Assembly (NCBI GenBank): GCA_023659895.1
Contig: JAGXOL010000008.1
Location: 1-36,243, forward strand
DNA from: Candidatus Aenigmarchaeota archaeon LH_S7
Lineage (GTDB): Archaea; Aenigmatarchaeota; Aenigmatarchaeia; QMZS01
Length of the DNA stretch: 36,243 nt
Direction: 5' to 3'
Part shown: positions 1-27,958 of the stretch, in pieces
How the letters are laid out: each line of letters begins with the position of its first letter
Numbering within the stretch: position 1 is the first letter of the stretch
Notes under the pieces: generated by a model
Told to the model about the DNA's origin: nothing
What the model saw: the letters and a program-made list of their open reading frames with translations, nothing else
The model's database searches: none
Position numbers and translations under genes: made by a program

Positions 1-33
1 TGTGGTTCAGAGTGCGACCTCAGAATCTCCTGA
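1..33 (+). CDS. tnpB: TnpB-type transposon protein, last 10 codons only (5' part outside window)
   Basis: The frame TGT GGT TCA ... TCC TGA encodes CGSECDLRIS followed by a stop. The same residues end a decayed TnpB-like reading frame on the minus strand at 27369-27610. The open frame is cut by the window edge, so nothing can be said about the catalytic domain. It lies inside the right end of an IS200/IS605-type element. Confidence 0.45.
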   Translation, partial: CGSECDLRIS

Positions 34-55
34 TTTTAGTCGTGGAGAGTGTCAA
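1..55 (+). mobile_element. Right end of an IS200/IS605-type element, body lies to the left of the window
   Basis: Bases 1-55 match the reverse complement of 27348-27401 with one substitution and one extra T. The segment contains an imperfect hairpin, CTCCTGA...TCGTGGAG, at about 27-47. It ends GAGAGTGTCAA, like the right tips of the copies at 27348 and 11930. The terminal TCAA recalls the right cleavage tetranucleotide described for IS608. Because it is cut at base 1, this is probably where assembly stopped in a repeat. Confidence 0.7.
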
Positions 56-10997: not shown

Positions 10998-11024
10998 AAA
11001 AAAGTTAATTCAGAAATTAATAAT

Positions 11025-11597
11025 TTATTTCATATTTAGAACTTCTTTAACTTTCTTGATTCCTGCCCCTTCTCTCACAATTCTAAGCTCAACAAGATTT
11101 ACCAGTGTATTGGATTGCGAATATTTAATTTCTTCATCACCTCTAACAACAAAATCAACATTAACCTCTAATTGATCCGATTTTTTTATAACCTCTTCTG
11201 AAAGACTTGCTGAAGCTGTGGCCAAAGGTAATCCTAACTTATCTATGAGTTCAGTGGCTATTTTGTTTTCAGGAAAATTTATTCCAACTCTCTCATTACC
11301 CCTGGTTATCAAATCAGAAACCAGTTCTTTTTTTGGTAAAACAACAGTAACAGGTCCTGGTAATAGTTCCTTAGCTTTTTTTCTTTGTTCTTTGGATAAA
11401 TAAGCTAGTTTCTCTAACATTTCAAAACTTGAAACAGTAATGGATAAGGGTTTGTTTATAGGTCTTTTTTTAATTTCAAAAATTCTCATTATTGCCTGCT
11501 CATTCATTATACCAGCTCCCACTTTATATCCTGTCTCAGTAGGAAATGCAATAATTCCACCCAATTTCAAAATTTCTGATGCTTTTTCTGTTTCCAT
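11025..11597 (-). CDS. yrdC: L-threonylcarbamoyladenylate synthase (YrdC/Sua5 domain only)
   Basis: 190 residues covering only the YrdC fold. The enzyme makes threonylcarbamoyl-AMP from Thr, bicarbonate and ATP, the first step of t6A37 synthesis; Kae1 in this window performs the second step. Motifs: GGIIAFPTETGYKVGAGI at about 13-30 (family usually PTETVYGLGA), EIKKRPINKPLSI at about 41-53 with the conserved KRPxxxPL, LLPGPVTVVLP, and ATASASLSE where most members have TSAN. Those two departures are mild and the fold is intact. The start lies only 8 bases from the divergent start of the methylthiotransferase fragment at 11606, so their promoters must overlap the other gene's coding sequence. 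Confidence 0.9.
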   Translation of the reverse strand: METEKASEILKLGGIIAFPTETGYKVGAGIMNEQAIMRIFEIKKRPINKPLSITVSSFEMLEKLAYLSKEQRKKAKELLPGPVTVVLPKKELVSDLITRGNERVGINFPENKIATELIDKLGLPLATASASLSEEVIKKSDQLEVNVDFVVRGDEEIKYSQSNTLVNLVELRIVREGAGIKKVKEVLNMK

Positions 11598-11605
11598 AAT
11601 TTTTT

Positions 11606-12019
11606 ATGAAACGATTTTACCTAAAAACCTATGGTTGCTCCGCAAACAAGAATGATTCAGAGATAATTGCAGGTATTTTATCTAAATCTGGTATGATTAA
11701 AATTAAGAACCCTAAATTTGCGGATTTAATAATCATAAATACCTGTATTGTCAAGAAACCCACAGAAAATAAAATCTTACATAGGATAAAAAAATTAAAA
11801 GAGAATTTTCCTAGAAAAAAATTCTTAATAGCTGGTTGTATGCCAGAAGCTTACCCAGAACTAATCAAAGATCACTTTCCTGAAATGAGCATGATTTCCA
11901 CGAACAAGATTAAGGATATAAGCAAGGTATTGACACTCTCCACGACTAAAATCGGTAGCTTTCTTGGGACTTATCTGTAAAAATAAAAACAAAGGGATTA
12001 AAAATATATGGAAAAATTA
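11606..12019 (+). pseudogene. Truncated MiaB/CDKAL1-type tRNA methylthiotransferase, cut by a 47-bp IS derivative
   Basis: The first 109 codons (MKRFYLKTYGCSANKNDSE..., FADLIIINTCIVKKPTE..., KKFLIAGCMPEAYPELI) are the N-terminal UPF0004 domain with its cluster cysteines C10, C45 and C76. Full-length enzymes are about 400 residues, with a radical SAM domain and TRAM domain that methylthiolate t6A37. Here the frame runs into the IS derivative at 11930 and stops at 11980 (tail LTLSTTKIGSFLGTYL). Removing 11930-11976 joins AAGGTA to GTAAAAATA in frame and gives VVKIKTKGLKIYGKIIKN then a stop near 12019, so the radical SAM part was missing even before or was lost with the insertion. No radical SAM sequence lies between here and aIF5A. 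Confidence 0.75.
11930..11976 (-). mobile_element. 47-bp solo IS200/IS605-type remnant: left tip fused to right tip
   Basis: Read on the minus strand it starts beside TTAC (plus GTAA at 11977-11980) with the left tip AGATAAGTCCCAAGAAAGCTAC, as at 27699 going leftwards. It passes straight into the right-tip hairpin arm TTTTAGTCGTGGAGAGTGTCAA seen at 1-55 and 27348. The join lies in the shared ACTAAA of both tip hairpins, so deletion between the two ACTAAA copies of a full element explains it. It interrupts the methylthiotransferase gene. Confidence 0.65.
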
Positions 12020-12026
12020 TAAAAAA

Positions 12027-12398
12027 TTAATTTTCTGAAATCTTCTTTTTTCCTTCGCACTCTATATAGTTCACTTGATCCTCCTCTTTTAGTTCCTTTC
12101 CTTCAGGAACATCCATGTCTATCATTTCGTAGGTCTCTAAATCCATTATTTGAGCCACATTACTTTGAACACTAATTACCTGTCCTTTCTTCTTTAGAAT
12201 CATAGGTACCTCAACTCTTGAGGTCACTGGCTTAACCAAATATCTCTTCTTTCCATCAAAAATTCCCACTGCTTCAACCCTTGCTTTTGCTTCACCGTGC
12301 TTACTTGTCTTTCTTTTTGTCAAGCTTGATATCTTACAAGGTTCTCCCTCTATCTTTATATAGTTTCCTTCCTTTAAACTTCTTAACTCTTCTGCCAT
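12027..12398 (-). CDS. eif5a: Translation initiation factor aIF5A
   Basis: 123 residues, the size of archaeal IF5A. The hypusination loop is KRKTSKHGEAKARVEAVG, with K33 of SKHG the residue modified by deoxyhypusine synthase; that enzyme is not in the window. The N-terminal SH3-like domain (EELRSLKEGNYIKIEGEPC) and C-terminal OB-fold (SVQSNVAQIMDLETYEMIDM) are complete. IF5A rescues ribosomes stalled at difficult peptide bonds such as polyproline. It is convergent with the disrupted methylthiotransferase and shares orientation with the small membrane protein directly upstream, 17 bases away. Confidence 0.96.
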   Translation of the reverse strand: MAEELRSLKEGNYIKIEGEPCKISSLTKRKTSKHGEAKARVEAVGIFDGKKRYLVKPVTSRVEVPMILKKKGQVISVQSNVAQIMDLETYEMIDMDVPEGKELKEEDQVNYIECEGKKKISEN

Positions 12399-12415
12399 AA
12401 AAAATAAAAATAAAA

Positions 12416-12712
12416 TTATTTCTTAGCAGTTTCTAGATTAATTCTGATTCCTCGATAATGAGATGCCACAAAATTGTAAACTATAGCAAATACTGCCCCT
12501 CCAATGAAACCCATTATAAAGAACAATATAGGGTAAACTATTATTGCTAAAGCACTAAGTGTACCAAGTGCAGCCCCACCAAGGAATCCTAGAATTGTAG
12601 ATCCTACTATTGCTGCAATTACACCAAATACTACTCCAATCACTGCATGCACCAAACCCATTACTACTGCAAAACTTAACACATCTATCCCTTTCAATTC
12701 CTGCATTACCAT
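12416..12712 (-). CDS. Small glycine-rich membrane protein (DUF3566-like)
   Basis: 98 residues with about three TM helices rich in Gly, Ala and Val (FAVVMGLVHAVIGVVFGVIA, FLGGAALGTLSALAIIVYPI, FIMGFIGGAVFAIVYNF). It ends with a short polar tail, VASHYRGIRINLET. The NxVAsxxGGIxxxL ending is the pattern of the small DUF3566-like membrane proteins common in DPANN and other archaea; function unknown. Either ATG (12712 or 12706, giving MQELKGIDVL) could be the start; the second matches the usual family N-terminus better. It is divergent from the 12751 gene across 38 bases and probably cotranscribed with aIF5A. Confidence 0.7.
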   Translation of the reverse strand: MVMQELKGIDVLSFAVVMGLVHAVIGVVFGVIAAIVGSTILGFLGGAALGTLSALAIIVYPILFFIMGFIGGAVFAIVYNFVASHYRGIRINLETAKK

Positions 12713-12750
12713 AATATATTTTATTTATAATAATATTATCCTATAATAAT
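12713..12750. promoter_or_regulatory. 38-bp bidirectional promoter region
   Basis: The gap between two divergent start codons is made almost entirely of A and T, with TATA-like runs in both directions (TATTTTATTTATAATAA). With only 38 bases available, both genes must be leaderless or nearly so, and the two TATA boxes must overlap. Confidence 0.45.
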
Positions 12751-13593
12751 ATGGAGTGGTGCAAAACCTTGAAGAAAAGTTTTATTTTCTCTATAGATAC
12801 AAAGAGATGGTTACCTGTTTTTGCAGCAGATATCTTCTTTGTTCTACTTGTATTATTATCAATCTTTTGGCTGGGAGGACTTTCAAATTATTCAATTATA
12901 TTGATTTTTCTGGAGATATTTATCATAGTTAGTCTTGCAAAAATCTGGATTAAGGGTGCTATAGTTCATCAGAGTTATAAAGAAAAAGACAAGGTCAAAG
13001 AATCTTTTAAGTTATCTTACAATAAGTATTTTTCTCTATTTGGAGCAGCAATAATAGTGATGATCATTAGCGGGATTGTTAGTATAGTTCCTGTAGTAGG
13101 TGTCATCTTCAGCATTTTAGTTTCCTTGATTTTCTTTTTTATTTATCAAGGTGTTATTGTAAAAGATTTTAAGTTTAATGAAACCTTGGAGCATTCTTAC
13201 AATATTTTCAAAAAGAATTGGAGCTCAGTAATAGGAATATTCCTGGTCTTGCTATTAACAACAGGTCTGATAATGCTTGTTTTCTTAATACCTCTAATTT
13301 CCATTTTTATACATTATTTAGTAAGTCTAAGCTCAATAGAAAACATTATCAATGCAATAACTTCCAACCCAATACCTCTCATAGTAACTGGGATTTTGGG
13401 TCTTATAGGTTTCTCTATTGGTCAGGTTTTCAGTTCAAAAGCTCAAACAGAATTTTATTTGCAATTAACCAAAAAGACTGCTGTTAATAAAAACGCAAAG
13501 AAAAGTTCTGCAAAAAAATCTGTTAAGAAGACTCCTAGGAAAACTAAAACAAAGAAAAGCTCCTCAAGAAAATCAACCCATAAAACTAAATAG
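12751..13593 (+). CDS. Integral membrane protein with basic C-terminal tail
   Basis: 280 residues. About six TM helices fill residues 20-225, with pairs of long helices separated by YKEKDKVKESFKLSYNKYFSLF and FNETLEHSYNIFKKNW. These recurring amphipathic S-Y-x-x-F-K segments between helix pairs are typical of DUF4013/DUF7847-like (glycerophosphodiesterase membrane domain-like) archaeal proteins. Residues 240-280 form a Lys/Ser/Thr-rich tail (KKSSAKKSVKKTPRKTKTK) that would stay in the cytoplasm and could bind nucleic acid or anionic lipids. Function is not known. The gene runs convergently into kae1, overlapping it by 8 bases. Confidence 0.65.
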   Translation: MEWCKTLKKSFIFSIDTKRWLPVFAADIFFVLLVLLSIFWLGGLSNYSIILIFLEIFIIVSLAKIWIKGAIVHQSYKEKDKVKESFKLSYNKYFSLFGAAIIVMIISGIVSIVPVVGVIFSILVSLIFFFIYQGVIVKDFKFNETLEHSYNIFKKNWSSVIGIFLVLLLTTGLIMLVFLIPLISIFIHYLVSLSSIENIINAITSNPIPLIVTGILGLIGFSIGQVFSSKAQTEFYLQLTKKTAVNKNAKKSSAKKSVKKTPRKTKTKKSSSRKSTHKTK

Positions 13594-14515
13594 AATCTAT
13601 TCTCCAGTTAGGATTTACTTTTGGTTCAATTCTTTTTTCTTCTTTCCAGTTAATTAAAGCTGTTAAAGCAATCATAACTCCATTATCTCCTGCATATTCT
13701 TTAGGAACTACATAAAAATTGGCTCCTCTATCCTCGCACATCCTTCTCAAAACTTCTTGTAATCTCTGGTTTTGTACTACTCCCCCCACAAGCAATAATT
13801 CCTTCTTATCTGTTGCTGCCAGAGCTCTCTCACAAACTTCTGCTAACATAGAAAAACAAACTTCTTGGAAGGAATGCAAAACATCTTCCTTTTTCTCTCC
13901 TTTCTCAATTTTTCTCATTGCCTCTGTTAGAATCCCTGAAAAATTCAAGTCCATTCCTTTAACTGAGTAAGGTAACAAGATGAATTTTCCTTTTTTAGCT
14001 AAGCTTTCTATTTTGGGACCAGCAGGAAATTTTAATCCAACCTTCCTACCCAACTTATCAAAAGCATTTCCTAACCCTATATCTTGAGTTTCTCCCAATA
14101 TCTTATAACCTCTATTATTATAGATAATCTGGGTATTACCCCCAGAAATGTAAAGAACTAAAGGATCTTCAACTCCACAAAAAACTTTTCCTACTTCTAT
14201 ATGCGCTTGACAATGATTAACGCCTATTATAGGTCTATCTAATTTCTTTGCTAAATTTTTCGCGAAATCAACCCCAAAATTAAGACAAGGAGGTAAACCA
14301 GGTCCTGAAGAAATACCTATCAAATCAATATTATCCAAATCAAGCTCCTCCAACAACCTGTTCGCATTTTCCTTGTGGAATTTAGCTGCTTCTCTTGGAA
14401 CTATTCCTTCCTTAGGTTGATAAGTTTGTCTTTCATCTATCAAAACATTATAAGTATCATCTATGACACCCAAACCAAATGTGTGTGCTGTGCATTCTAT
14501 TCCAAGTACCCTCAT
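13586..14515 (-). CDS. kae1: tRNA N6-threonylcarbamoyladenosine synthase subunit Kae1
   Basis: 309 residues of the ASKHA-fold Kae1/TsaD family, which transfers the threonylcarbamoyl group to A37 of ANN-decoding tRNAs as part of KEOPS. Metal ligands are in NHCQAHIEVG (H101 and H105) and GDNGVMIALT near the C-terminus (Asp). Nucleotide-binding motifs are LYISGGNTQII, GLGNAFDKLGR and LLVGGVVQNQRLQEVL. The length shows no fused Bud32 kinase, which in many euryarchaea is part of the same chain; Bud32, Cgi121 and Pcc1 are not in this window. YrdC at 11025 supplies the substrate. Start ATG 14515 (MRVLGIECTAHTFG) is the canonical N-terminus. Confidence 0.96.
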   Translation of the reverse strand: MRVLGIECTAHTFGLGVIDDTYNVLIDERQTYQPKEGIVPREAAKFHKENANRLLEELDLDNIDLIGISSGPGLPPCLNFGVDFAKNLAKKLDRPIIGVNHCQAHIEVGKVFCGVEDPLVLYISGGNTQIIYNNRGYKILGETQDIGLGNAFDKLGRKVGLKFPAGPKIESLAKKGKFILLPYSVKGMDLNFSGILTEAMRKIEKGEKKEDVLHSFQEVCFSMLAEVCERALAATDKKELLLVGGVVQNQRLQEVLRRMCEDRGANFYVVPKEYAGDNGVMIALTALINWKEEKRIEPKVNPNWRIDSI

Positions 14516-14547
14516 AAAAAACCTTATCCAAAAAAAGAATTATATTT

Positions 14548-15204
14548 ATGAAGACTATTGCAGTGATTCCCGCTTTTAATGAAGAGAAAGCTATTGGGAA
14601 GGTTTTAGAAGAAATTAAAAAGTTTGTGGATGAAGTTATAGTTGTTGATGATGGTTCCAGAGATAAAACTACTCAAATTTCTAATAAAGAAAAAGTAACT
14701 TTAATCAAACATGAAAAGAATGAAGGTTATGGAAAAAGTTTAAGAGATGGAATAAAAAAGGCTTTGGATAAGAAAGCTGATTACATAATAACCTTGGATT
14801 CTGATGGGCAACATAATCCTAAGGATATACCTAAAATAATCAAAGGGTTAAAAAAACACGATGTTGTGATTGGTTCTAGGTTTACAGGAAAAACTTCAAA
14901 ACACACTCTAAAAAGAAATGTTGGTTTGAGGTTGCTAGCGATAGAATTTTTCTTGTTTACATTATTATTCATAAAAGATGTACAATCAGGATATAGGGGT
15001 TATAGAAAAGAAATGCTAAAAGATGTAAGATTCAAAGAAAAAGGGTTGGGTTTTTCAATAGAAATATTAATAAAATTAAAAAAGCGGGGTGCAAGTTTCA
15101 AGGAAATTCCTATAAAAGTGAAATATTTCAAGGGTTCAAGGAGTTTCTTCTCTGTAGTAAGACAAGGAGTTGAAATAGGAAAAACTATCCTGAAATATTT
15201 TTAA
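14548..15204 (+). CDS. Family 2 glycosyltransferase, polyprenol-phosphate sugar synthase (DPM1-like)
   Basis: 218 residues of GT-A fold. VIPAFNEEKAIG (6-17) binds the nucleotide sugar, VVDDGSRDKT (32-41) is the first acidic motif, and LDSDGQHNP (83-91) contains the DxD metal site. QSGYRGYRKEML and GFSIEILIKLKKRGASFKEIP are typical of the dolichol-phosphate mannose/glucose synthase branch. There are no C-terminal TM helices, so the protein is probably peripheral. By family it charges a membrane polyprenyl phosphate with a hexose for protein N-glycosylation. That fits the neighbouring exported protein, which is very rich in N-x-S/T sites. It is convergent with that gene, overlapping by 4 bases. 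Confidence 0.88.
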   Translation: MKTIAVIPAFNEEKAIGKVLEEIKKFVDEVIVVDDGSRDKTTQISNKEKVTLIKHEKNEGYGKSLRDGIKKALDKKADYIITLDSDGQHNPKDIPKIIKGLKKHDVVIGSRFTGKTSKHTLKRNVGLRLLAIEFFLFTLLFIKDVQSGYRGYRKEMLKDVRFKEKGLGFSIEILIKLKKRGASFKEIPIKVKYFKGSRSFFSVVRQGVEIGKTILKYF

Positions 15205-17882
15205 GGATTGTTTATTGAATTTTTCATTAAATCCAATATATAAGAATAAAAGTAGTTAAGATTTTCAACAATACTCTCAAAAATATTTTTCTCACGGAAC
15301 TTACCAGTAAATTTATCTTCTCTAGTACTTGTATTATTAGATGATTGTTTTTCTTCTGATTGATTAATAATTCTTGGTTCTTTTTTAGATTCCCAAACAT
15401 AAGTCTTATTTATTAGAACTTTAGAATTTTTTAATACAAAAACTTTGTATTTTCCAAATCTATCAAAAACTCTATATTTCCTATTTGTAATTGCAGTAAT
15501 ATTAGGTCCAGTAATAATCATTTTACATCCTTCGCAATTGCTAAGATTTATTCTTATCTTTGTGTCATTCCAAATTTTTAAATTAGGCAACTTAAATTCT
15601 TTTACTTGTGCAGCTTCTTTTATTATCTCTTCATTAACTTTTATGTTTTTGGTTTTATCAATCTGATCATCATCTAGTTTTGCTCTAACCCTAAAGGGAT
15701 AATCTCCTGGTTTTGCTTCTTCTTCAATCTTGTTTCTTAATTTAATAGTTTTTTCCTCATTTTCCTCTAATGTTACTTCTTTCCTGTTTGAGGTCCACCC
15801 TCCTGTTATGCAATTTCTTCCATCAAATGCATAAGAATAAGTTTCAAAAGATATTTTCTTTCCAAAATTGTTTTTCAGTTTTACTCTTGTTGTAAATTCC
15901 TCGTTTCTTGCAACTTCTTTTGTTAGGTTTAAAATTTCTATTTCCAGAGTTTTTGATTTTTCTTCAGATTTTGTTGTTGAGTCTTTTGAAATATATTGGC
16001 ATAGATTATTTGCTTTTCCAGAAATATTGAGAGACAACTCTTTTTTTGTTTTCCACCTATTGCGTTCCTTTGTTTCTATGACAATTCTATATTCAGAGTT
16101 GTGATAATGATCATTACAATTTGGTTTGATTATCAGAGGCACAAAAATATATTTTGTTTCACCCCTGCTAAAACTATAGGTCATTTCATAATTTAAAGAC
16201 GCATATCTGGTTTTACTTATTGATAAATCTTTATTTATTCTTGCCCTGCAGCCAAGAGAGCCAGCATAATTATTTGCATTTACTTTTAGAAATATAGGGA
16301 TTATATCTCCAAATCTTGCTGTTTCTGGTGGTTCACCTAAAATAGATACATTTAAATCACCCAAATCTTTCAAACCATTTAACCAAAAAATTCCATTATC
16401 TGAAGAGTCTAAATAATCCCAACCAGTAGAACCATATTTAAATTTTGCCCTTAACTTATAGATTCCTTCAAAATAATTCTCGGGAATAGTAAAATTGCCA
16501 GAAATTGTTGTTCCATTTTGGGTGATATTAAAAGAATTATTTTCATAGGTTGTATTGAAATATTTAAAACCCGAACCTGACTTCTTATTTTTTCCTAATT
16601 TTAATGTCAGATTTCCTGTAGTTGAACCATTTAGTGGGATAAACAATTGTATTATCCAATTAATAGAACTATTTAATTCATATTTTTCTTTGTCTATCCA
16701 GCTCCTAAGTCTATATCGTATTCTATCTCCGGGATTAATTGTAATATTTTTATTAATTGAATTATCTGATTTGTTAATATCATTGAAATTGTGAAGAGTC
16801 ATATTTGCACAAACATTGAATTTTCCAAAACCAATATCAAGGCTTGCATTTTGAAAAGCTTCTTTTTCTATTTTTCCAGAGTCTATGATAAAATTACCAA
16901 TGGAGATATTGTAGTTTATTGTACAAGAAGCGTTTGAAAGATTTGTATAAAAAATTATTTTTTCATCTTCTTCTGTAATATTTAGAGAAATACTTGCATT
17001 CTCCAAAGGCAATATTTCAAAATTTTTGCAGAAAGAATTATTTGCTTCCGCACAAATTGTATAGTTTCCAGTTTCATTAAATGTCCAATTAAATTGAATT
17101 TTTGTTTGGTTTATTGCCTTTACTTTACAGTCTACTTCACTAGAATAAACTGCTGAATTTGTATTGTTGATAATTGTCAAACTAATATTTTCTGTTCCAT
17201 TCTCAAGACCTCTATTTAGAATCGTTATATTAAATTCAATTGAGTTATTTACAAAAATTTGTTCTGCTGAAATATCCAAAAGTTCTAAAGTCGCATTTTC
17301 ATAAAAATTCTGTTTTCCAGGACTTGGTGGAAAGGCAACCCAGTTTGTTGAATTGTTTGAAAGATTCTGGCTTGAATTAATCCTTTGGAGAGAATATCCA
17401 TCTCCATCTGCTCCCCAACTATCATTATAAGTTATGGAATCTGTTAAATTTCCTTGATTATTTGTAAGATTTATTGTTTCTCCAGTATTTTTTAATCCTC
17501 CTCCACACAAACTTCCTGCATCCACATGTAAAGCCAAAGAATCATTTGAAACATTAAAGTATTGGTAAACTTCTGTTCCACTCTCACCATCTGTAATTAT
17601 TGCATATTGATTTGGTGAAAGATTTGTACCTTTGTTTAAATAAGGTCCTCCCACTCCAGAATTTGTATAATTTATATAACCAGCCAATAATTCTTTTTCA
17701 CAAAGTTCCCAACTACTCAAATTTACTGATCTATTTCCTGGATTATAAATTTCTATCCATTCAGAGTAATCTTCATCTTGTTCAGTACTTGGATTATACA
17801 TCACTTCATTAATCACAACCTGCCCAAAGCAAGGAAGAAAAATAAACTGAAAAAAGACAAATAACGAAATAATTTTTTTCAT
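15201..17882 (-). CDS. Large exported lamin-tail-domain surface protein
   Basis: 893 residues. A signal peptide (KKIISLFVFFQFIFLPCFG) leads to a lamin-tail domain at about 21-195: VVINEVMYNP, SEWIEIYNPGNRSVNLSSW, GDGYSLQRI and FPPSPGKQN are the hallmark strands. Several CARDB/Ig-like beta domains follow (ISAEQIFVNNSIEFNITILNRG, LEIEILNLTKEVARNEEFTT). The sequence is packed with N-x-S/T sequons, so it is probably heavily N-glycosylated. No clear C-terminal TM anchor is visible; the end is amphipathic (FESIVENLNYFYSYILDL). It is likely an S-layer-associated or secreted structural or adhesion protein; no enzymatic motif was seen. Cysteines are sparse and partly paired in the lamin-tail domain. 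Confidence 0.85.
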   Translation of the reverse strand: MKKIISLFVFFQFIFLPCFGQVVINEVMYNPSTEQDEDYSEWIEIYNPGNRSVNLSSWELCEKELLAGYINYTNSGVGGPYLNKGTNLSPNQYAIITDGESGTEVYQYFNVSNDSLALHVDAGSLCGGGLKNTGETINLTNNQGNLTDSITYNDSWGADGDGYSLQRINSSQNLSNNSTNWVAFPPSPGKQNFYENATLELLDISAEQIFVNNSIEFNITILNRGLENGTENISLTIINNTNSAVYSSEVDCKVKAINQTKIQFNWTFNETGNYTICAEANNSFCKNFEILPLENASISLNITEEDEKIIFYTNLSNASCTINYNISIGNFIIDSGKIEKEAFQNASLDIGFGKFNVCANMTLHNFNDINKSDNSINKNITINPGDRIRYRLRSWIDKEKYELNSSINWIIQLFIPLNGSTTGNLTLKLGKNKKSGSGFKYFNTTYENNSFNITQNGTTISGNFTIPENYFEGIYKLRAKFKYGSTGWDYLDSSDNGIFWLNGLKDLGDLNVSILGEPPETARFGDIIPIFLKVNANNYAGSLGCRARINKDLSISKTRYASLNYEMTYSFSRGETKYIFVPLIIKPNCNDHYHNSEYRIVIETKERNRWKTKKELSLNISGKANNLCQYISKDSTTKSEEKSKTLEIEILNLTKEVARNEEFTTRVKLKNNFGKKISFETYSYAFDGRNCITGGWTSNRKEVTLEENEEKTIKLRNKIEEEAKPGDYPFRVRAKLDDDQIDKTKNIKVNEEIIKEAAQVKEFKLPNLKIWNDTKIRINLSNCEGCKMIITGPNITAITNRKYRVFDRFGKYKVFVLKNSKVLINKTYVWESKKEPRIINQSEEKQSSNNTSTREDKFTGKFREKNIFESIVENLNYFYSYILDLMKNSINNP

Positions 17883-17935
17883 AAGAAACTTATAATTAAA
17901 TATTTATGAAACTAAAATATCTAACTCCAAGATTT

Positions 17936-18111
17936 TTAATAAGTACCATTAGAATCTTCATCAGCAATTGTCCAATTACTCAAATTTATAGAGTTATTTG
18001 AAGGGTTATAAAGTTTACCCATTCAGGCTTTGTTGAATGAACTTCATTAATAACAAGAGCCTGTGAAGGAAAAATCAAAAACAAGAAGATTAATAAAGGT
18101 GATAAAATGTC
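17936..18111 (-). pseudogene. Decayed second lamin-tail gene (N-terminal fragment)
   Basis: Reading the minus strand gives a hydrophobic leader (LLIFLFLIFPSQA), then LVINEVHSTKPEWVNFI. After a one-base frame change comes NPSNNSINLSNWTIADEDSN followed by GTY and a stop. This matches the start of the 15201-17882 protein (VVINEVMYNP...EWIEIYNPGNRSVNLSSWEL). No ATG is in frame with the leader, the frame is broken once, and the gene ends after about 55 codons. It is therefore a dead fragment of a tandem paralogue. Confidence 0.75.
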
Positions 18112-18137
18112 TCATAAATTAATTCAAATTATAAATT

Positions 18138-18704
18138 ATGGATACTATTGAGTTAAGAGATATTTTGATCTCTTGGTTGGTTTTAAGTGTAGCATTCATG
18201 AATTTATTTGGGATTTCTCTAGAGAATCTATTAATGTTTTTGTTTATTATAGGATTAAGTGTAATAATCCATGAGCTTGCTCACAGAGAAGTTGCGAAGA
18301 GATTAAAATTTGATGCAAAATACAAAGCCTGGCCAATGGGTTTAATTTTGGCTTTAGTTACTTCATTCGCGGGTTTTCTTTTTGCAGCACCAGGAGCAGT
18401 AATGATTTCTCCTAAATATGTTTTCCATGAAAGCAGAGAAAGATTAAAAGAAGCAAATTTCAAGATTTCTGCAGCTGGACCTGGAACAAATATTATTTTG
18501 GGTGCATTTTTTGCTGTTTTAGCTCTCAATTTTGCGGGTTCCTTGTTTTATTTTGCATCTATGATAAACATTTGGCTGGCTATCTTTAACTTAATTCCTT
18601 TCCCTCCTCTGGATGGGTCAAAAATATTCTCTTATGATGTAAAATATTGGGGTGTGATGATTGGTATTGCAGCGGCATTATTTGTTTTGTTAGGTAGTTT
18701 TTAG
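18138..18704 (+). CDS. Site-2 protease-like M50 intramembrane metalloprotease
   Basis: 188 residues with four to six TM helices. The zinc-binding motif HELAH is at 45-49 inside a helix (IIHELAHREVAKRLKFDA), with E46 as the catalytic acid. The third ligand is D159 in LIPFPPLDGSK, the NPDG-type motif. The protein is near the minimal length for archaeal M50 proteases and has no PDZ or CBS domain. Such enzymes cut membrane-anchored regulators inside the membrane. A membrane-anchored winged-helix regulator exists at 32848-33711, but pairing the two is speculation. It starts at ATG 18138 after a short A+T-rich leader and stands alone on the plus strand. Confidence 0.87.
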   Translation: MDTIELRDILISWLVLSVAFMNLFGISLENLLMFLFIIGLSVIIHELAHREVAKRLKFDAKYKAWPMGLILALVTSFAGFLFAAPGAVMISPKYVFHESRERLKEANFKISAAGPGTNIILGAFFAVLALNFAGSLFYFASMINIWLAIFNLIPFPPLDGSKIFSYDVKYWGVMIGIAAALFVLLGSF

Positions 18705-18806
18705 TTTTCTTAGTAGGAATTGGACTTTTTGGTATTATGATGTTTTTATAACTGGATGAATAATTCTTTAAAGTATTACTATAGGAGCAATTTTCTGGTC
18801 TAATAT

Positions 18807-19425
18807 TCAAAGTTTGGGCCACATTTTTTTAGTTGCAATTAGACTTACAATATTATTTAGTTCCTCATTCAAATAACACGAGATTGTTAGTATTCCTTTT
18901 TCTGCTATTGTTTTTTTGTTAGACGAAGTAACAATCAACAATTCTCTGTTTTTTATATCAAATTCTTTCTTGAGAAAATTAAAGTTAAATTCTTCTACAT
19001 ATTGCGCTTTCAGTAAATCATTTTCACAGGTTAAGACCATAGCAGAATTGCATCCAACCCTGATTCCATTTTCTCGGGCAACATATAGTTTTTTCCTGTT
19101 TGTTTTTGTTATATTTTCTCAGAATACACCCATAACAATTTAAATTATCCCTAAAAATATCTTGATTTATTTTGATTATTGGAGATATAAATTTATATAT
19201 TTCAGAAAAATATTTCTTTCCTTTTTTAGTTAATTTATTACCCTTCTTTTCTGTTGAAACAAAATCATTATTTTTTAGAATTTTTATCATGGATTTTATA
19301 CTCCCTTCTCCAAATTCTGTAATTGTTGCCAGTTCCTCCCTGCTTACTGTTTTATGTCCTATTTCAAGAAAAGTAAGCATTATATCTAAGTCATCAAATT
19401 TTCTTAAAGTTCTTACAACCTCCAT
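18807..19425 (-). pseudogene. Winged-helix transcription regulator (DUF4443-like), frameshifted
   Basis: The 5' part (from 19425) encodes a winged helix: LDIMLTFLEIGHKTVSREEL, FGEGSIKSMIKILKNNDFV, STEKKGNKLTKKGKKYF. The frame then goes wrong in the A-rich stretch near 19100-19110 and ends at 19024 as ICCPRKWNQGW. The alternative frame reads LYVARENGIRVGCNSAMVLT and continues into the second half (CENDLLKAQYVEEFNF...) down to 18807. The ARENGIRVGCNSAM segment is the expected regulatory-domain sequence, so the gene is one about 205-codon gene with a one-base indel in a run of A. It could be true decay or a sequencing error. It is divergent from nrdD and may have regulated it. Confidence 0.7.
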
Positions 19426-19479
19426 ATTTATATAAATAATTTTTCTATATTAATTATTGTACGCCGTGTCCAATAGAAT
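19426..19479. promoter_or_regulatory. Divergent promoter between the regulator and nrdD
   Basis: 54 bases separate the two start codons. TATATTAA at 19446-19453 sits about 27 bases before the nrdD ATG, as expected for a leaderless archaeal transcript. Between the box and the ATG lies an unusually G+C-rich decamer (ACGCCGTGTC at 19461-19470) that could be an operator or start-site element. TTTATATAAA near 19431-19439 can serve the other direction. Confidence 0.45.
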
Positions 19480-21597
19480 ATGATTAATAAAATAAAAAAA
19501 AGAGATGGAAGGATTGTGAATTTTGAAAAAGAGAGAATAATTAATGCGATTTTTAATAGTGCTAAAGCAGTTGGTGGACAGGATTATGAATTAGCAAAAA
19601 AACTTGGTGATGAAGTAATTAAACTTTTGAAACAAAAATTAGATCCGGAAGAAATACCAACAGTTGAAAAGATTCAGGATATTGTTGAAAAGATTCTGGT
19701 AGAAAATGGGCATTATAAAACTGCCAAAGCTTACATATTATATAGAAAACAGCATGAAGAAATAAGAAGAACTAAAGATCTATTTTCTAATATAGAAAAC
19801 ATTGAAAGATATTTAAATGGGGAAGACTGGAGAGTAAAAGAAAATGCAAATATGAGCTACTCTCTTCAGGGTTTAAATTTTTATATTTCCTCTACAATAA
19901 CTACCCAATACTGGCTAAATAAAATCTATCCCGCAGAAATCAAACAAGCACATTTAAATGGTGATTTTCATATTCATGATTTGGGTATCTTTGGAGCTTA
20001 TTGTGTTGGTTGGGACTTGCAGGATCTACTGCTAACTGGTTTTAAAGGAGCGAGAGGAAAAATTGAGAGCAAACCACCAAAGCATTTCAAGTCAGCATTA
20101 GGTCAGATAGTAAATTTCTTATATACTTTGCAAGGTGAATCAGCAGGAGCCCAGGCATTCTCTGATTTTGACACCCTACTTGCCCCTTTTATCAGGCATG
20201 ATAATTTGAGTTACAGACAAGTGAAGCAGGCTATCCAGGAATTTTTATTCAATATAAATATTCCAACTAGAGTAGGATTTCAGACCCCTTTTACAAATAT
20301 TACTATGAATTTAACAGTACCTGGATACTTAAAAAATGAACCAGTGATGATAGGAGGAGAAACAAAAGAGGACACATACAGTGATTATACAAAGGAAATG
20401 AGCATGATCAACAGGGCTTTTGTTGAGGTGATGCAGGAAGGGGATGCGAAAGGTAGGCCTTTTACTTTTCCTATTCCAACTTATAATATAACAAAAGACT
20501 TTGACTGGGAAAATAAAAATTATGATAAACTTTTTGAGATAACTGCAAAATATGGAATTCCTTATTTTGCAAATTTTATTAATTCGGATATGAAACCTGA
20601 TGATGTCCGGTCCATGTGTTGCAGAATGAGAATTGATAACAGGTCACTCCAGAAAAGAGGAGGAGGTCTTTTTGGAGCAAATCCTCTTACAGGATCCATA
20701 GGAGTTGTAACAATTAATATGCCCCGTTTGGGATTTTTATCAAAAACTAAAGAAGAATTTTTTGAGAAATTAGAAAGATTAATGTTACTTGCAAAGAATA
20801 GTCTTGAAATAAAAAGAAAAACATTGGAAAATTTGACAGAAAAGGGTTTGTATCCCTATTCAAAGTTTTATTTGAGAGATATTAAAAAAAGATTTGGAGA
20901 CTATTGGAAAAACCATTTTTCAACAATCGGACTTATTGGAATGAATGAGTGTTGTCTAAATTTTTTAGATTGTACCATTGGAGATAAAGAAGGATTAAAA
21001 TTTGCAGAAGAAGTTATGGATTTTATGAATAACAAGTTAATAGAGTTTCAGAAGGAAACCGGAAACAACTACAATTTAGAAGCCACTCCAGCTGAGGGAA
21101 CCTCATACAGATTAGCAAGGATGGACAAAGAGAAGTTCCCTAAGATTATTGTTGCAAACAATGAGGAAGTAAAAAAGGGTGTAGAGCCATATTACACAAA
21201 TTCAACACAACTCTCAGTTAATTTCACAAATGATATTTTTGAATCTCTAAAATTGCAGGACCCTCTTCAGATAAAATATACAGGAGGGACGGTTCTGCAC
21301 ATATTTTTGGGTGAAAAAAAACCTCCAGCAGAATCGGTTAAAGCACTTATTAGAAAAATCTGTGAGAATTTCAGTTCACCTTATTTTACAATAACACCTA
21401 CTTTTAGCATCTGCCCCATTCATGGTTATCTTTTTGGTGAACATAAGTACTGTCCAAAATGTGAAGCAGAGAAAAAGAAAACCAAATGTGAAGTTTACTC
21501 CAGAATTGTTGGGTATTTAAGACCTGTTGACCAGTGGAATGAAGGAAAGCAGGAAGAATTTAAACAAAGAAAAACTTTTGATAAGGCTCTAAAATGA
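19480..21597 (+). CDS. nrdD: Anaerobic (class III) ribonucleoside-triphosphate reductase
   Basis: 705 residues. An N-terminal ATP-cone (IKKRDGRIVNFEKERIINAI) at about 4-95 is the allosteric site. The catalytic core follows, with SMCCRMRIDNRSLQKRGGG (Cys pair of the active site) and NECCLNFL. The C-terminal zinc site is CPIHGYLFGEHKYCPKC, and the glycyl radical loop is RIVGYLRPVDQWNEGKQEEF, whose Gly carries the radical. It reduces NTPs to dNTPs without oxygen, using formate or a thiol reductant. Its activase nrdG overlaps by 4 bases. This shows an anaerobic route to DNA precursors; no class I or II enzyme appears here. Length is normal. Confidence 0.97.
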   Translation: MINKIKKRDGRIVNFEKERIINAIFNSAKAVGGQDYELAKKLGDEVIKLLKQKLDPEEIPTVEKIQDIVEKILVENGHYKTAKAYILYRKQHEEIRRTKDLFSNIENIERYLNGEDWRVKENANMSYSLQGLNFYISSTITTQYWLNKIYPAEIKQAHLNGDFHIHDLGIFGAYCVGWDLQDLLLTGFKGARGKIESKPPKHFKSALGQIVNFLYTLQGESAGAQAFSDFDTLLAPFIRHDNLSYRQVKQAIQEFLFNINIPTRVGFQTPFTNITMNLTVPGYLKNEPVMIGGETKEDTYSDYTKEMSMINRAFVEVMQEGDAKGRPFTFPIPTYNITKDFDWENKNYDKLFEITAKYGIPYFANFINSDMKPDDVRSMCCRMRIDNRSLQKRGGGLFGANPLTGSIGVVTINMPRLGFLSKTKEEFFEKLERLMLLAKNSLEIKRKTLENLTEKGLYPYSKFYLRDIKKRFGDYWKNHFSTIGLIGMNECCLNFLDCTIGDKEGLKFAEEVMDFMNNKLIEFQKETGNNYNLEATPAEGTSYRLARMDKEKFPKIIVANNEEVKKGVEPYYTNSTQLSVNFTNDIFESLKLQDPLQIKYTGGTVLHIFLGEKKPPAESVKALIRKICENFSSPYFTITPTFSICPIHGYLFGEHKYCPKCEAEKKKTKCEVYSRIVGYLRPVDQWNEGKQEEFKQRKTFDKALK

Positions 21598-22298
21598 AAA
21601 TAGGAGGTTTTCAAAAGCAGAGTTTGGTTGACTATCCAGAAAAAATTTGCTCAATTATTTTTACAGTTGGTTGCAATTTCAGGTGTCCTTATTGCCATAA
21701 CCAAGACTTAGTAATCCCTGGAAAAACTGCAAAAGAAATTCCAGAGGAGGAAGTTTTATCTTATCTAAGAGACAATAACAAACTTCTTAATGCTGCAGAA
21801 ATAACGGGGGGTGAGCCAACTCTACACCAAGACTTGCCAGACTTTATTCAGAAAATCAGAGAACTTGGACTCCTGATAAAACTAGATACTAATGGAACAA
21901 ATTTTGAAATGCTGAAAAAATTGTTGGATGATAACTTGTTGGATTATGTTGCTATAGACATTAAAGCTCCAATAGAGTTCCATAAATATAACAAAGCAAC
22001 AGGAGGAATACTAACAGAAAAATTATTTAGCAATGTTAAAAAATCTATCTCACTTTTACTTAATTCAGGAATTCAATATGAATTCAGAACAACCATTGTT
22101 CCAGGGCTACTTACAAAAAAAGATGTTGTCAAAATTTGCTCATTCATCAAAAATGCAAATCAGTTTTCTTTACAACAATTTAACCCTGAAAACACCTTGG
22201 ACAAAAAATTTCAAAAACTTAAACCATTTGAAGAAAATGAAATAATTTCTTTGATTGCAGAGTGCAAACATTACATCCAAAATATTCTTTACAGGTAA
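21594..22298 (+). CDS. nrdG: Anaerobic ribonucleotide reductase activating protein (radical SAM)
   Basis: 234 residues. The radical SAM motif CNFRCPYC (C27, C31, C34) is preceded by GGFQKQSLVDYPEKICSIIF, the conserved lead of the NrdG/PflA group. ITGGEPTLH is the GGE SAM-binding motif, and IKLDTNGTNF and VAIDIKAP follow. The enzyme generates the glycyl radical on NrdD. The ATG overlaps the nrdD stop (ATGA), giving translational coupling and a fixed ratio of enzyme to activase. The C-terminal FSLQQFNPENTLD block is typical of this archaeal/bacterial subgroup. Directly downstream lies an IS605-type insertion. Confidence 0.95.
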   Translation: MKIGGFQKQSLVDYPEKICSIIFTVGCNFRCPYCHNQDLVIPGKTAKEIPEEEVLSYLRDNNKLLNAAEITGGEPTLHQDLPDFIQKIRELGLLIKLDTNGTNFEMLKKLLDDNLLDYVAIDIKAPIEFHKYNKATGGILTEKLFSNVKKSISLLLNSGIQYEFRTTIVPGLLTKKDVVKICSFIKNANQFSLQQFNPENTLDKKFQKLKPFEENEIISLIAECKHYIQNILYR

Positions 22299-22421
22299 AA
22301 TTAATTAATCTTGACTGAATTTCAATTATTTAATCAATTTTTGAGCTCCAATAATTCTTTTTTTGAGTAATTAATAAAAACTAATCTACTTCCCTATTTT
22401 AACTTAAAATATCCAAGAAGT

Positions 22422-22464
22422 CTACTTCCAAAATCTTAGCCAATAATACAGATTTTGGTGGTAG
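22422..22464 (+). repeat. Left-end hairpin of the TnpB element
   Basis: CTACTTCCAAAATC pairs with GATTTTGGTGGTAG around a 15-base loop. The right end carries a similar hairpin with the same CCAAA/TTTGG core. Such subterminal hairpins are what Y1 transposases bind in IS200/IS605 elements. Confidence 0.7.
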
Positions 22465-22502
22465 ATGAATTGGCATACTAAAGGTTTTTTGTAAATATAT
22501 AT

Positions 22503-23711
22503 ATGGTTGTGAAAAATTATAAATACAGAATTTATCCAACAGGAAAACAAAAAATAAGATTAGAAAAACAATTTGAGATTTGTAAAAACTTACATAATGA
22601 CTTATTGGAAATATCCAAAGAAACTTACACATGTAGTGGAAAGTCTGTAACAAGTAGAAAAGATTTGTATCAAGTTACCAATATTCTAAAAGAACAAAAT
22701 GGTTATAAAGGACATTCTCAGGTTCTACAGAATGTTGCAGATAAGCTAAGCAAGTCTTATAAAGCATTTTATCAGAGAATAAAAGAAAAACAGAAAGGCA
22801 AGAAAGTCAAAGTTGGCTATCCAAGATTCAAGAAGAGAATAAACAGTATAACCTATCCGCAGAATAATAGTTGTTTCAAATTCAAAAATCAGAGAAGACT
22901 TCATATAACTCAAATAGGTTCTGTTCCTATTGAGTTGCACAGGATACCAAAAGGAACTCCAAAAACCCTTACAATTAAGAAAACACTAAGTAACAAATGG
23001 TTTGTTTCCTTTAGTTGTGAGATAGAAAACAAACCAGTTAAACACAAATATCCTGAAAACAAAACTGGTATAGATTTAGGATTGGAAAACTTTGCTACTC
23101 TGTCGGACGGAACTGTTATAGAAAATCCAAGATTTCTAAATAAAACAGAAAAGAAACTCAAAAGAGAGCATAGGAGATTAAGTAAAAAGAAGAAAAGGTC
23201 TATTAATAGGAGTAAACAAAGAGTGAAATTAGCAAGATCTTATGAAACCTTAACTAATCAGAGATTAGATTTTCTACATAAATTAAGTTACCACCTTACA
23301 CAACAATATGATTTCATAGCCATAGAAAATTTGGGTGTATCAAATATGGTTAAGAATCATTATTTGGCAAAATCAATATCTGACGCAAGTTGGTCTGTTT
23401 TTACAGGAATGCTCACTTACAAGGCTTCAAGTGCTGGAGGTAAGTTAGTAGAAATAGACAGATTTTACCCATCTTCCCAAATATGTTCTGATTGTGGAAA
23501 TAAACAAGATATGCCACTATCAAAGAGAATATATAAATGTGAAAAATGTGGTGCAAAAATACCAAGAGATAAGAACTCTGCAATCAACATATTAATGGAA
23601 GGAATAAAAGAAAATACGGCTGGGCGAGTCGGAATTCACGCCTGTGGAGATTTGACCTCTACTGATCAGTCAGCAAGTCGAGTCGTGGAAGCAGGAACTA
23701 TATGTAACTAG
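22503..23711 (+). CDS. tnpB: TnpB, RNA-guided nuclease of IS605-type element
   Basis: 402 residues with all catalytic parts present. The RuvC-I Asp is D191 in TGIDLGLENFATL, the RuvC-II Glu is E275 in FIAIENLGVSNM, and the zinc ribbon is C328/C331 and C346/C349 (ICSDCG, YKCEKCG). The RuvC-III Asp is D356 in PRDKNSAIN. The N-terminus MVVKNYKYRIYPTGKQ is the usual helix-turn-helix start. Characterised TnpB proteins cut DNA guided by an RNA from the element's right end, and favour retention of the element when it is excised. The C-terminal tail (HACGDLTSTDQSASRVVEAGT) overlaps the predicted guide-RNA scaffold. It is probably active, as no frameshift or lost residue is visible. There is no adjacent tnpA. 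Confidence 0.95.
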   Translation: MVVKNYKYRIYPTGKQKIRLEKQFEICKNLHNDLLEISKETYTCSGKSVTSRKDLYQVTNILKEQNGYKGHSQVLQNVADKLSKSYKAFYQRIKEKQKGKKVKVGYPRFKKRINSITYPQNNSCFKFKNQRRLHITQIGSVPIELHRIPKGTPKTLTIKKTLSNKWFVSFSCEIENKPVKHKYPENKTGIDLGLENFATLSDGTVIENPRFLNKTEKKLKREHRRLSKKKKRSINRSKQRVKLARSYETLTNQRLDFLHKLSYHLTQQYDFIAIENLGVSNMVKNHYLAKSISDASWSVFTGMLTYKASSAGGKLVEIDRFYPSSQICSDCGNKQDMPLSKRIYKCEKCGAKIPRDKNSAINILMEGIKENTAGRVGIHACGDLTSTDQSASRVVEAGTICN

Positions 23712-23800
23712 GTCTCACAACCATTACTAGTTGCTGGAAGCCACTTCCAAAAATCAATTTGGTGGTGGAGGATGTCACACATTTTATTCTGCAATCAATA
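23600..23800 (+). ncRNA. Predicted omega (re) RNA of TnpB
   Basis: The 3' end of tnpB and the element's right end are markedly richer in G+C than their surroundings and can fold (CAAC-GTTG and CCAAA-TTTGG hairpins at about 23720-23768). In characterised systems the scaffold ends at the right tip (about 23779) and the guide is the flanking DNA after it, here beginning near TTTTATTCTGCAAT. The 5' limit is a guess. The copy at 36145 has the same scaffold but a different flank, so a different guide. Confidence 0.5.
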
Positions 23801-23882
23801 CACTTCCTTATAATACAGCCCTGCTCATTTTCTACTTTGCTTAATCGTCAACCATCTCTTTTTGATTTATTTAATCCATACT

Positions 23883-24272
23883 TCACAACTTCTCCAATTC
23901 TAATTTCCTTAAAGCTTCAAAATTTGGATCTTCCACCTTCGCAATGTTTTCTAGCTGTATATATCTTTCTTCATTGTATTCCTTAATTTTTCCAATCACA
24001 TCAACCAAATCCCCTTTCTCCACCTCCTCCAAAATAGTTAAGTCCTTGAAAACCTTGCATCTTATTGTGTCAGTTGTGTCATCTAAGGTTATGGTTCCAT
24101 AGTTTCCATCCTCTGAAATAAATTTATCAATTACTGTTCCCAAAACTCTTACTCGAGAAAATTCTATTTCTTCAGTTTTCACATAATTAGGGTTCATTCC
24201 TCCCTGCTGTACAAACTCTCCTGTATGAAGAATTTTTACATTTACTTTCTTAGCAACTTGTCTCTCTTGCAT
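23883..24272 (-). CDS. Single OB-fold nucleic-acid-binding protein (RPA32-like)
   Basis: 129 residues. An OB-fold is visible from about residue 38: FSRVRVLGTVIDKFISEDGN, YGTITLDDTTDTIRCKVF, VEKGDLVDVIGKIKEYNEER and YIQLENIAKVEDP are the beta strands of RPA- or tRNA-anticodon-type domains. The DDTTDTIRCKVF block is the form found in archaeal RPA32-like (RPA-associated) proteins that bind single-stranded DNA. No zinc finger is present. A short N-terminal segment (VAKKVNVKILHTGEFV) precedes the domain. Its stop lies about 100 bases from the right end of the TnpB element on the other strand; the gene is not damaged. Hel308 follows upstream in the same orientation, a sensible partner in replication or repair, though 287 bases separate them. 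Confidence 0.82.
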   Translation of the reverse strand: MQERQVAKKVNVKILHTGEFVQQGGMNPNYVKTEEIEFSRVRVLGTVIDKFISEDGNYGTITLDDTTDTIRCKVFKDLTILEEVEKGDLVDVIGKIKEYNEERYIQLENIAKVEDPNFEALRKLELEKL

Positions 24273-24558
24273 AATTAAAGAGTTTTAAGATTATTTAATT
24301 GTCTTTTTGGAGCAGATTTCTTCTAAAAATGGTCAAAGAAGATGGCCTGAACAAACTAAACAAAAATGAATAAACTACAAGGTGAAGCTACTGCAATAAC
24401 TAAACTGCCAGCCAAACCTGACAATACACCAGACTTGAAAAATCTTAGGAATCTCTTATTCATAAATTTTAGATTAAATATGTGCGAAATTAAATAACGA
24501 ACTATCTAACTCTCACAACAAAAGTTGTTAATTTTGATTAATTTCACACATCTCTATT
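24273..24558. other. Intergenic region between two minus-strand genes
   Basis: 286 bases with no convincing gene. A perfect small hairpin, ACAACAAAAGTTGT (24516-24529), lies just past the hel308 stop but is not followed by a T-run on that strand. Two short ORFs occur, one per strand (see 24356-24463); neither is recognised. Confidence 0.4.
24356..24463 (-). CDS. Possible 35-residue membrane peptide
   Basis: ATG at 24463 opens MNKRFLRFFKSGVLSGLAG and continues into SLVIAVASPCSLFIFV then TAG. Basic residues before one hydrophobic stretch would suit a small membrane peptide. There is no homology call and no clear promoter, and chance occurrence is quite possible in this A+T-rich spacer. Confidence 0.2.
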   Translation of the reverse strand: MNKRFLRFFKSGVLSGLAGSLVIAVASPCSLFIFV

Positions 24559-26607: not shown

Positions 26608-26635
26608 TAATTAATCTTGAATAAAATTTTGGTAA

Positions 26636-27157
26636 TTAATTTAGACAAGAAGCAACATTATGATCTTCATTCAAATACTTCCTGACATCATTGTCTTGGG
26701 ATGCAAGGTTCTTTGCCAGATTTATTTCACGTTGGTAAGGGCTAATTTCTTCCCAATCCTTCCCTATTTTATGTCCTTGTTCTATTGTTTTTTTCTCTGT
26801 TAGACCTTCTTCTATAGATTCCCAAGCACCTCCATATTTATTCATTAAATTTATGGGCTTCTCTGGATTTTCTTTTAAAGATTTGTAATGGATTGTTTCA
26901 TGTGCCAAGACATAATTCTCAAAGTTATTCACATATTCTCCTAGGCTTCCATACTTATCTAAAAATTCTTCAATATTACCTTTCTTAGAGGATTCATCCA
27001 TTTTATTAAAATAATCAACTACTGCATATAAACTAGATAAAGGATTTATCTCTATTTTATAAGGGGTGCACTCTTTCCCATCACAACCAAATAAGGTTCT
27101 ACCTCCTATTTGAGGATCCATAGGTCTATATTCTGGTTTTGGACAACTACTTGCCAT
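26636..27157 (-). CDS. Putative zinc metallopeptidase with HETIH motif
   Basis: 173 residues, no signal peptide and no TM helix. YVLAHETIHYKSL carries an HExxH motif (H86, E87, H90). Downstream ESIEEGLTEKKT at about 114-124 offers a Glu (E116/E117) about 26 residues after the second His, the arrangement of gluzincin-like or phage/ImmA-like minimal proteases. Cysteines at 5, 25 and 30 (SCPKP, GCDGKEC) could make a second metal site or disulfide. I do not recognise the family, so the peptidase call rests on the motif alone. It is divergent from the small gene at 27191 across 33 bases, which suggests a shared control region or paired function. A cytoplasmic target is likely. Confidence 0.6.
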   Translation of the reverse strand: MASSCPKPEYRPMDPQIGGRTLFGCDGKECTPYKIEINPLSSLYAVVDYFNKMDESSKKGNIEEFLDKYGSLGEYVNNFENYVLAHETIHYKSLKENPEKPINLMNKYGGAWESIEEGLTEKKTIEQGHKIGKDWEEISPYQREINLAKNLASQDNDVRKYLNEDHNVASCLN

Positions 27158-27368
27158 AATAAAATTTATAAATTTTAAATATCTTCTATAATGCTGAAGG
27201 AAATAATAAAGAAAGAAGTGGATGAAATTTTAGAGAGAACATTTTATGTTAACTTCTATAAAATAGAAGAACTAGCAGAAAGATATGATTTTGAGAAAGT
27301 TGCAACTTGCAGAAAACCAGAAGGAGAAACAGGACATTCTTTTTCATTTGACACTCTCCACGACTAAA

Positions 27369-27610
27369 TCAGGAGATTCTGAGATCGCACTCTGAACCAC
27401 AAAGCCTTTCGGCTGACTTCTTTATGAACTCTGCCTCAGTTCTGGGTTGTGCCAAAACAACCCCTAGTTTAGACATATAGCCTAAACCTCGTTGGTCTTT
27501 TATTGTATAAGCACCTTACCTCTTATTTGGTTGTTGCCAACGGTTTTAACAGGTGTAGTGTTCTGAAGTTTTAACCTTTCTCCAGCACAGCTATAGAGAA
27601 AGAACTCCAT
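27369..27610 (-). pseudogene. tnpB: Decayed C-terminal fragment of TnpB-like protein inside the deleted element
   Basis: From ATG 27610 the minus strand reads MEFFLYSCAGERLKLQN, then TTPVKTVGNNQIRGKVLIQ and a stop. In another frame it resumes DQRGLGYMSKLGVVLAQPRT, then EAEFIKKSAERLCGSECDL and RIS with a stop at 27369. The last ten residues are the same as those at window bases 1-33. No RuvC or zinc-ribbon residues remain. It is a remnant, with the internal deletion having fused the 5' leader to the C-terminal coding region. Confidence 0.55.
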
Positions 27611-27621
27611 AACTATATACA

Positions 27622-27635
27622 GAAAACTTTAAATA
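27622..27635 (+). promoter_or_regulatory. Outward-facing TATA-like box inside the deleted element
   Basis: GAAAACTTTAAATA is a good match to an archaeal BRE plus TATA box read to the right. A transcript from it would start about 25 bases later, near 27660, and run into the C-terminal half of the split gene and towards iscS. Whether it is used is unknown; A+T-rich sequence gives such matches often. Confidence 0.3.
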
Positions 27636-27958
27636 CCCTTCTTTCCAGCCCAATTCATCTACCCTCACTAAAGTCTGTAGCTTTCTTGGGACTTTATCTG
27701 TAATGCAGTAGTCTATTCTAAAAACAAAGGGGAAGAAGCTATTGTTTTGTGTGATAAATTAGGGGCTTTATATAAAAATGATAAAATATCTATAAATGAT
27801 ATCAACTTAGGGGAATCTTGTCCTCACTCTGAAGAAGTATCTAAAAACTTAAAAGAGTTTTTTCGATTGGATTATAAAAAGATAAGGGATTCAGAACAAC
27901 TTAAAGAATATTTAGAAAGATAGTTTATGATATTTAGAGAGAAATAAATCTCATTAAA

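Follow-up and report, generated by a model that had tools for sequence, protein, structure and literature searches.

How a 47-bp sequence came to lie within a gene for a MiaB-like tRNA methylthiotransferase, in the stretch encoding the N-terminal part, in the Candidatus Aenigmarchaeota archaeon LH_S7 was the question raised by this locus. The window, that is, the whole 36,243-nt stretch of DNA that was analysed, is the entire contig C55 of a 740-kb, 56-contig assembly that is 85% complete and whose gene content (aIF5A and other genes) is archaeal. On the plus strand of the window, positions 11930-11976 read TTGACACTCTCC...GGGACTTATCT, followed by GTAA at 11977-11980. The data suggest, with a probability of roughly 0.86, that recurrent repeat-mediated deletion of the core left this insert as a terminal-only relic (PATE) of an IS608-like, TnpB-associated IS200/IS605 element. 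The features are listed in Table 1.

Table 1. Features of the insert, the interrupted gene and related element copies in the window
Feature	Position	Strand	Basis or remark
47-bp terminal-only IS608-like element with fused ends	11930..11976	-	Comparison with other element ends
Right cleavage site C_R, TCAA	11930..11933	-	Role taken from IS608 (PMC5934647)
Chimeric hairpin CTAC-CGAT-TTTA-GTCG-T-GGAG	11938..11958	-	Left arm from left end, right arm from right end
Left guide G_L, AAAG, 5' foot of hairpin	11959..11962	-	Role taken from IS608 (PMC5934647)
Target and left cleavage site C_L, TTAC (GTAA on plus strand)	11977..11980	-	Role taken from IS608 (PMC5934647)
First 108 codons of archaeal MiaB-like tRNA methylthiotransferase (UPF0004 domain), broken by insert	11606..11929	+	
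17 codons and stop regained once insert is set aside	11977..12030	+	No significant homology
Related 352-bp non-coding element with both ends	27348..27699	-	G_R GAAT at 27376-27379; TTAC target at 27700-27703
Right end of another copy, cut off by contig start	1..55	+	Match to the 47-mer

The gene holding the insert matched UPF0004 with an E-value of 4.6e-26, and its best NCBIfam models were the MiaB/RimO subfamily and MiaB-like-B, a t6A methylthiotransferase. In most close relatives the gene is unbroken and about 420-450 codons long. The residues at the insertion point are KVV or KVI in the nearest relatives, and removal of the 47 bp restored KVV; none of the relatives compared (L031-L037, L039) carries the 47 bases as ordinary coding sequence at that codon. 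The initial annotation held that removing the insert restores the frame for 17 more codons. The frame does reopen for that length, but homology of these codons is not supported, since 3730 of 5000 shuffles scored equally well against the homologues. The last ~310 codons of the gene were also not found elsewhere in the 85% complete assembly. The C-terminal three quarters of the gene were therefore lost in a second event, separate from the insertion.

The family of the insert was defined by longer related copies, 352 bp to 1.4 kb in length, present in this genome and in the relatives G006 and G007. In the 1.4-kb copy (contig C56), the gene for a TnpB-like protein runs on the other strand, against the left-to-right reading first proposed, and in G007 both tnpA and tnpB come after the sequence that had been called the right tip. 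The initial annotation thus had left and right swapped: the element lies on the minus strand, and its supposed left tip is the right end of the IS. A plus-strand reading with a TTGAC target was rejected on the basis of the tnpA/tnpB orientation and the IS608 guides. Read in the minus orientation, full copies carry all four signals of IS608 (PMC5934647): C_L (TTAC), the guides G_L (AAAG) and G_R (GAAT), which stand at the feet of the left and right hairpins respectively, and C_R (TCAA), placed at the right end. GAAT is missing from the 47-mer. IS608 (ISHp608) of Helicobacter pylori likewise has like hairpins at both ends and a related TnpA, and the G007 TnpA, encoded beside such a left end, matched the ISHp608 transposase with an E-value of 1.3e-32. 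The elements studied here differ from IS608 in being archaeal, and their copies often lack tnpA or any genes; the 47-mer differs further in having one hairpin and no right guide. The Y1 HUH transposase TnpA was not found in the 85% complete assembly. The window also contains a tnpB gene (402 aa) of another IS605-type element at 22503-23711, at which ends of the 47-mer type are absent.

TTAC adjoins the left ends compared, and reconstruction of the empty sites at ndk (contig C44) and at 27348 revealed no target duplication, so insertion occurs 3' to a fixed tetranucleotide, as in the IS200/IS605 family. The 352-bp element splits a small ORF (ETGHSFS|CNAVVYSKNKG), which had no Pfam match, and removal of the element yields one continuous frame. 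In G007, an empty TTAC was found at a site where G006 carries a left end. The limits 11930-11976 set by the initial annotation proved exact, with TTAC as the left limit and TCAA as the right limit fixed by the empty sites at ndk, at 27348 and in G007. Close to the 352-bp element, a cysteine desulfurase gene (Aminotran_5, 27959-29102) is divided into two overlapping ORFs in different frames, which suggests a frameshift or an assembly error.

The end hairpin of the family has the form CTAC or CTCC-CGAC-TTTA-GTCG-T-GTAG or GGAG and showed paired changes, with 95% of cells paired and none of 500 shuffles as high. At its third position, an A-T or a C-G pair distinguishes left ends from right ends. 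An Rfam search over 11000-28000 gave zero matches. The 47-mer retains TTAC, AAAG, one chimeric hairpin and TCAA; with both outer ends intact, the core gone and a single palindrome remaining, it is a terminal-only PATE by structure. The chimeric hairpin has one A.G mismatch, and this lies at the third position, so it marks the fusion of a left end with a right end. When folded as a single strand, the 47-mer was weak and did no better than shuffles, in keeping with a damaged hairpin. A second form of damage recurs at left ends in L010, L012 and L063, where other sequence (CTACCGATTGGCTTAGAATTAAGG) stands in place of the hairpin's 3' half.

A genome-wide search with the fused stretch gave five best other matches with E-values from 4.8e-15 to 3.6e-10, and equivalent fusions of 47-49 bp in all were located at three unique sites of the genome: C55:11930, C11:43957 (end of rpl15) and C44:53362 (ndk stop codon). 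Because of these E-values and the two additional sites, the similarity of the 47-mer to IS ends is not due to chance. In ndk, removal of the insert changes ACA ATT TGA to ACA ATG TAA, and ndk in four relatives ends in ATG plus a stop codon, as in the insert-free reconstruction. The coding-strand target GTAA together with the insert start TTGA re-makes the stop codon at once, and the ndk insertion is therefore nearly harmless. Both fusions outside the window (C44:53362, L006, and C11:43957, L002) are located at gene ends. A chance resemblance, an assembly artefact or ordinary coding sequence has next to no probability of explaining the 47-mer; the assembly is metagenome-like and fragmented into 56 contigs, but the low E-values, the three unique sites and the exact restoration of the ndk stop codon speak against it, and the restored ends at ndk and 27348 in essence refute it.

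Three of the ten left ends in the LH_S7 genome are fused, compared with 0 of 19 in G006 and G007 combined. The fusion pattern was absent from 155 other genomes of the class (present in 1/156), and none was found in GTDB and viral contigs. For the 28-bp relic L074 of G006, a reading as a smaller fusion was tried and rejected; its left flank is unlike that of G007, and truncation of a left end explains it best.

The parents of the fusions were sought among the longer copies. The best match to the left-end part of the 47-mer was C11:14179 (34 bases exact), and the best matches to its right part were the C56 copy and window positions 1-55 (24 bases exact). The initial annotation described the insert as exactly the tips of the 27348-27699 element. 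This was correct for the first 21 bases, which equal 27348-27368, but the remainder departs from the other tip of that element at two substituted bases and one deleted base; because of these differences in its left end, 27348-27699 is a relative of the 47-mer and not its exact parent. It is instead the best left-end match of the C44 fusion. Each of the three fusions is a mosaic with its own parental pair of left and right alleles. A direct repeat at the junction, as in terminal-only PATEs, was present in each, the tips common to the best parents overlapping by 7, 8 and 14 bases; the 7-8-base overlap in two of the three fusions is so short because the true parents are missing from the copies available. 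The tips within single full copies share up to 16 bases, versus about 5 expected by chance, and several copies share only 5-9.

The hairpin tips have two alleles, GTCGT and GTGAGG, and every pairing of these across left and right ends of full copies is present (L050-L063, from G006 and G007); such free mixing suggests exchange or conversion between the two ends of an element. The same mixing, and the fact that the best parent of each half is a different copy, would fit an origin of the 47-mer in which two separate copies exchanged their ends, for example by unequal crossover or template switching. We consider such an origin very unlikely, since exchange between distant copies would have rearranged the flanks, whereas the ATG and stop codon of ndk are restored across the site and the flanks there belong together; moreover, allele mixing permits both parental tips to occur in one copy. 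Loss of the core from a single copy, through slippage or short-homology repair between its two tips, is the simplest route. As the junction falls within the hairpin tip and away from the TnpA cleavage sites, the fusion can be explained without cutting by the transposase.

In the proposed sequence of events, a longer element would have entered the methylthiotransferase gene in minus-strand orientation, 3' to a TTAC, as the boundaries determined here indicate. Binding of both ends by one TnpA, a reason borrowed from IS608, would account for the near-identity of the hairpin tips, which is observed, and these tips would then act as a direct repeat. Judging from the mosaics, slippage or short-homology deletion between the tips would have removed the core, so that the outer halves of the two hairpins, left from the left one and right from the right one, became joined. 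The differing parental alleles indicate that equivalent events probably took place separately at the two other sites. The fusion of IS605-type left and right ends by short-homology deletion at common hairpin tips, as first suggested, is thus supported as the best explanation. A full copy at any of the three fused sites was found in none of the relatives examined, none of which is of the same genus.

In IS608 the GAAT guide selects the right cleavage site (PMC5934647), and a 47-mer that has lost it should, by IS608 chemistry, no longer be able to excise. This bears on whether the 47-49-bp fused unit is itself mobile, with TnpA acting in trans, so that the three copies would be transposed mini-elements and not scars formed in place. 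The three copies do occupy unrelated TTAC sites of one genome and none occurs in relatives with many longer copies, and possible movement of terminal-only copies of 52 bp has been suggested by Dyall-Smith et al. (PMC3119063). Such mobility is nevertheless improbable here given that the left and right end alleles differ in each fusion, the right guide is gone, the chimeric stem carries a mismatch and the Y1 transposase is absent from the assembly, though this is only 85% complete. In our analysis the fusions are best read as probably dead scars.

The deletion route and its product have already been published for Haloquadratum, and the 47-mer belongs to that kind (PMC3119063). The 52-bp terminal-only PATEs and the ISHwa23 relics of Dyall-Smith et al. 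(2011) were attributed to repeat-mediated deletion at 19-22-bp palindrome repeats; the authors left the mobility of the 52-bp copies undecided, all six strain-specific ISHwa23 insertions had the terminal-only form, and for some copies the full-length form was shown at the same site in another strain (PMC3119063). The Haloquadratum walsbyi PATEs (HqIRS46, ISHwa23) likewise consist of fused IS605-type ends from which the core and one palindrome were lost by deletion at a direct repeat of near-terminal palindromes. They are 52 bp long versus 47-49 bp here and belong to another archaeal lineage and another element. In the present fusions, IS608 guides could be assigned and loss of the right guide demonstrated, the ends are mosaic, the common repeat is shorter, and no strain pair with full and fused forms at one site was found.

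A PATE-like element of Halanaerobium hydrogeniformans is also an ends-only IS605 derivative, but it comprises 28 nt of left end, 58 nt of tnpB and a 160-nt right end and is not a tip-to-tip fusion (PMC7290912). REP sequences of TnpA-REP systems share with the 47-mer a single guide-like tetranucleotide and a single hairpin, whereas they are many-copy, carry GTAG and have a dedicated TnpA-REP (PMC8266576); the fusions here are low-copy scars, three in number, with an AAAG foot in place of the high copy number and GTAG foot motif of REPs/REPINs. That one-hairpin fusions with the left guide only, still moved by TnpA in trans, represent the first step from an IS605 element toward REP-like repeats is very unlikely. 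A looser fusion pattern gave one match, in a Bathyarchaeota MAG (PKYH01000099.1, L125:7939-7987), to a like one-hairpin unit, TTAC-...-AAAG-CTAC-CGACTTTAGTCG-GGGAGAGTG-TCAA. A possible decayed second unit lies at about 1500-1548 of L127, and the full parent of the unit was not found in this MAG.

Scars of 47-49 bp are easily missed by annotation and account for some broken or altered gene ends, and the loss of the right guide provides a testable reason for regarding the fusions as dead. The findings suggest that solo-end scars of IS605 elements are not confined to haloarchaea: one transposase that needs two like hairpins gives the element a direct repeat able to delete it.
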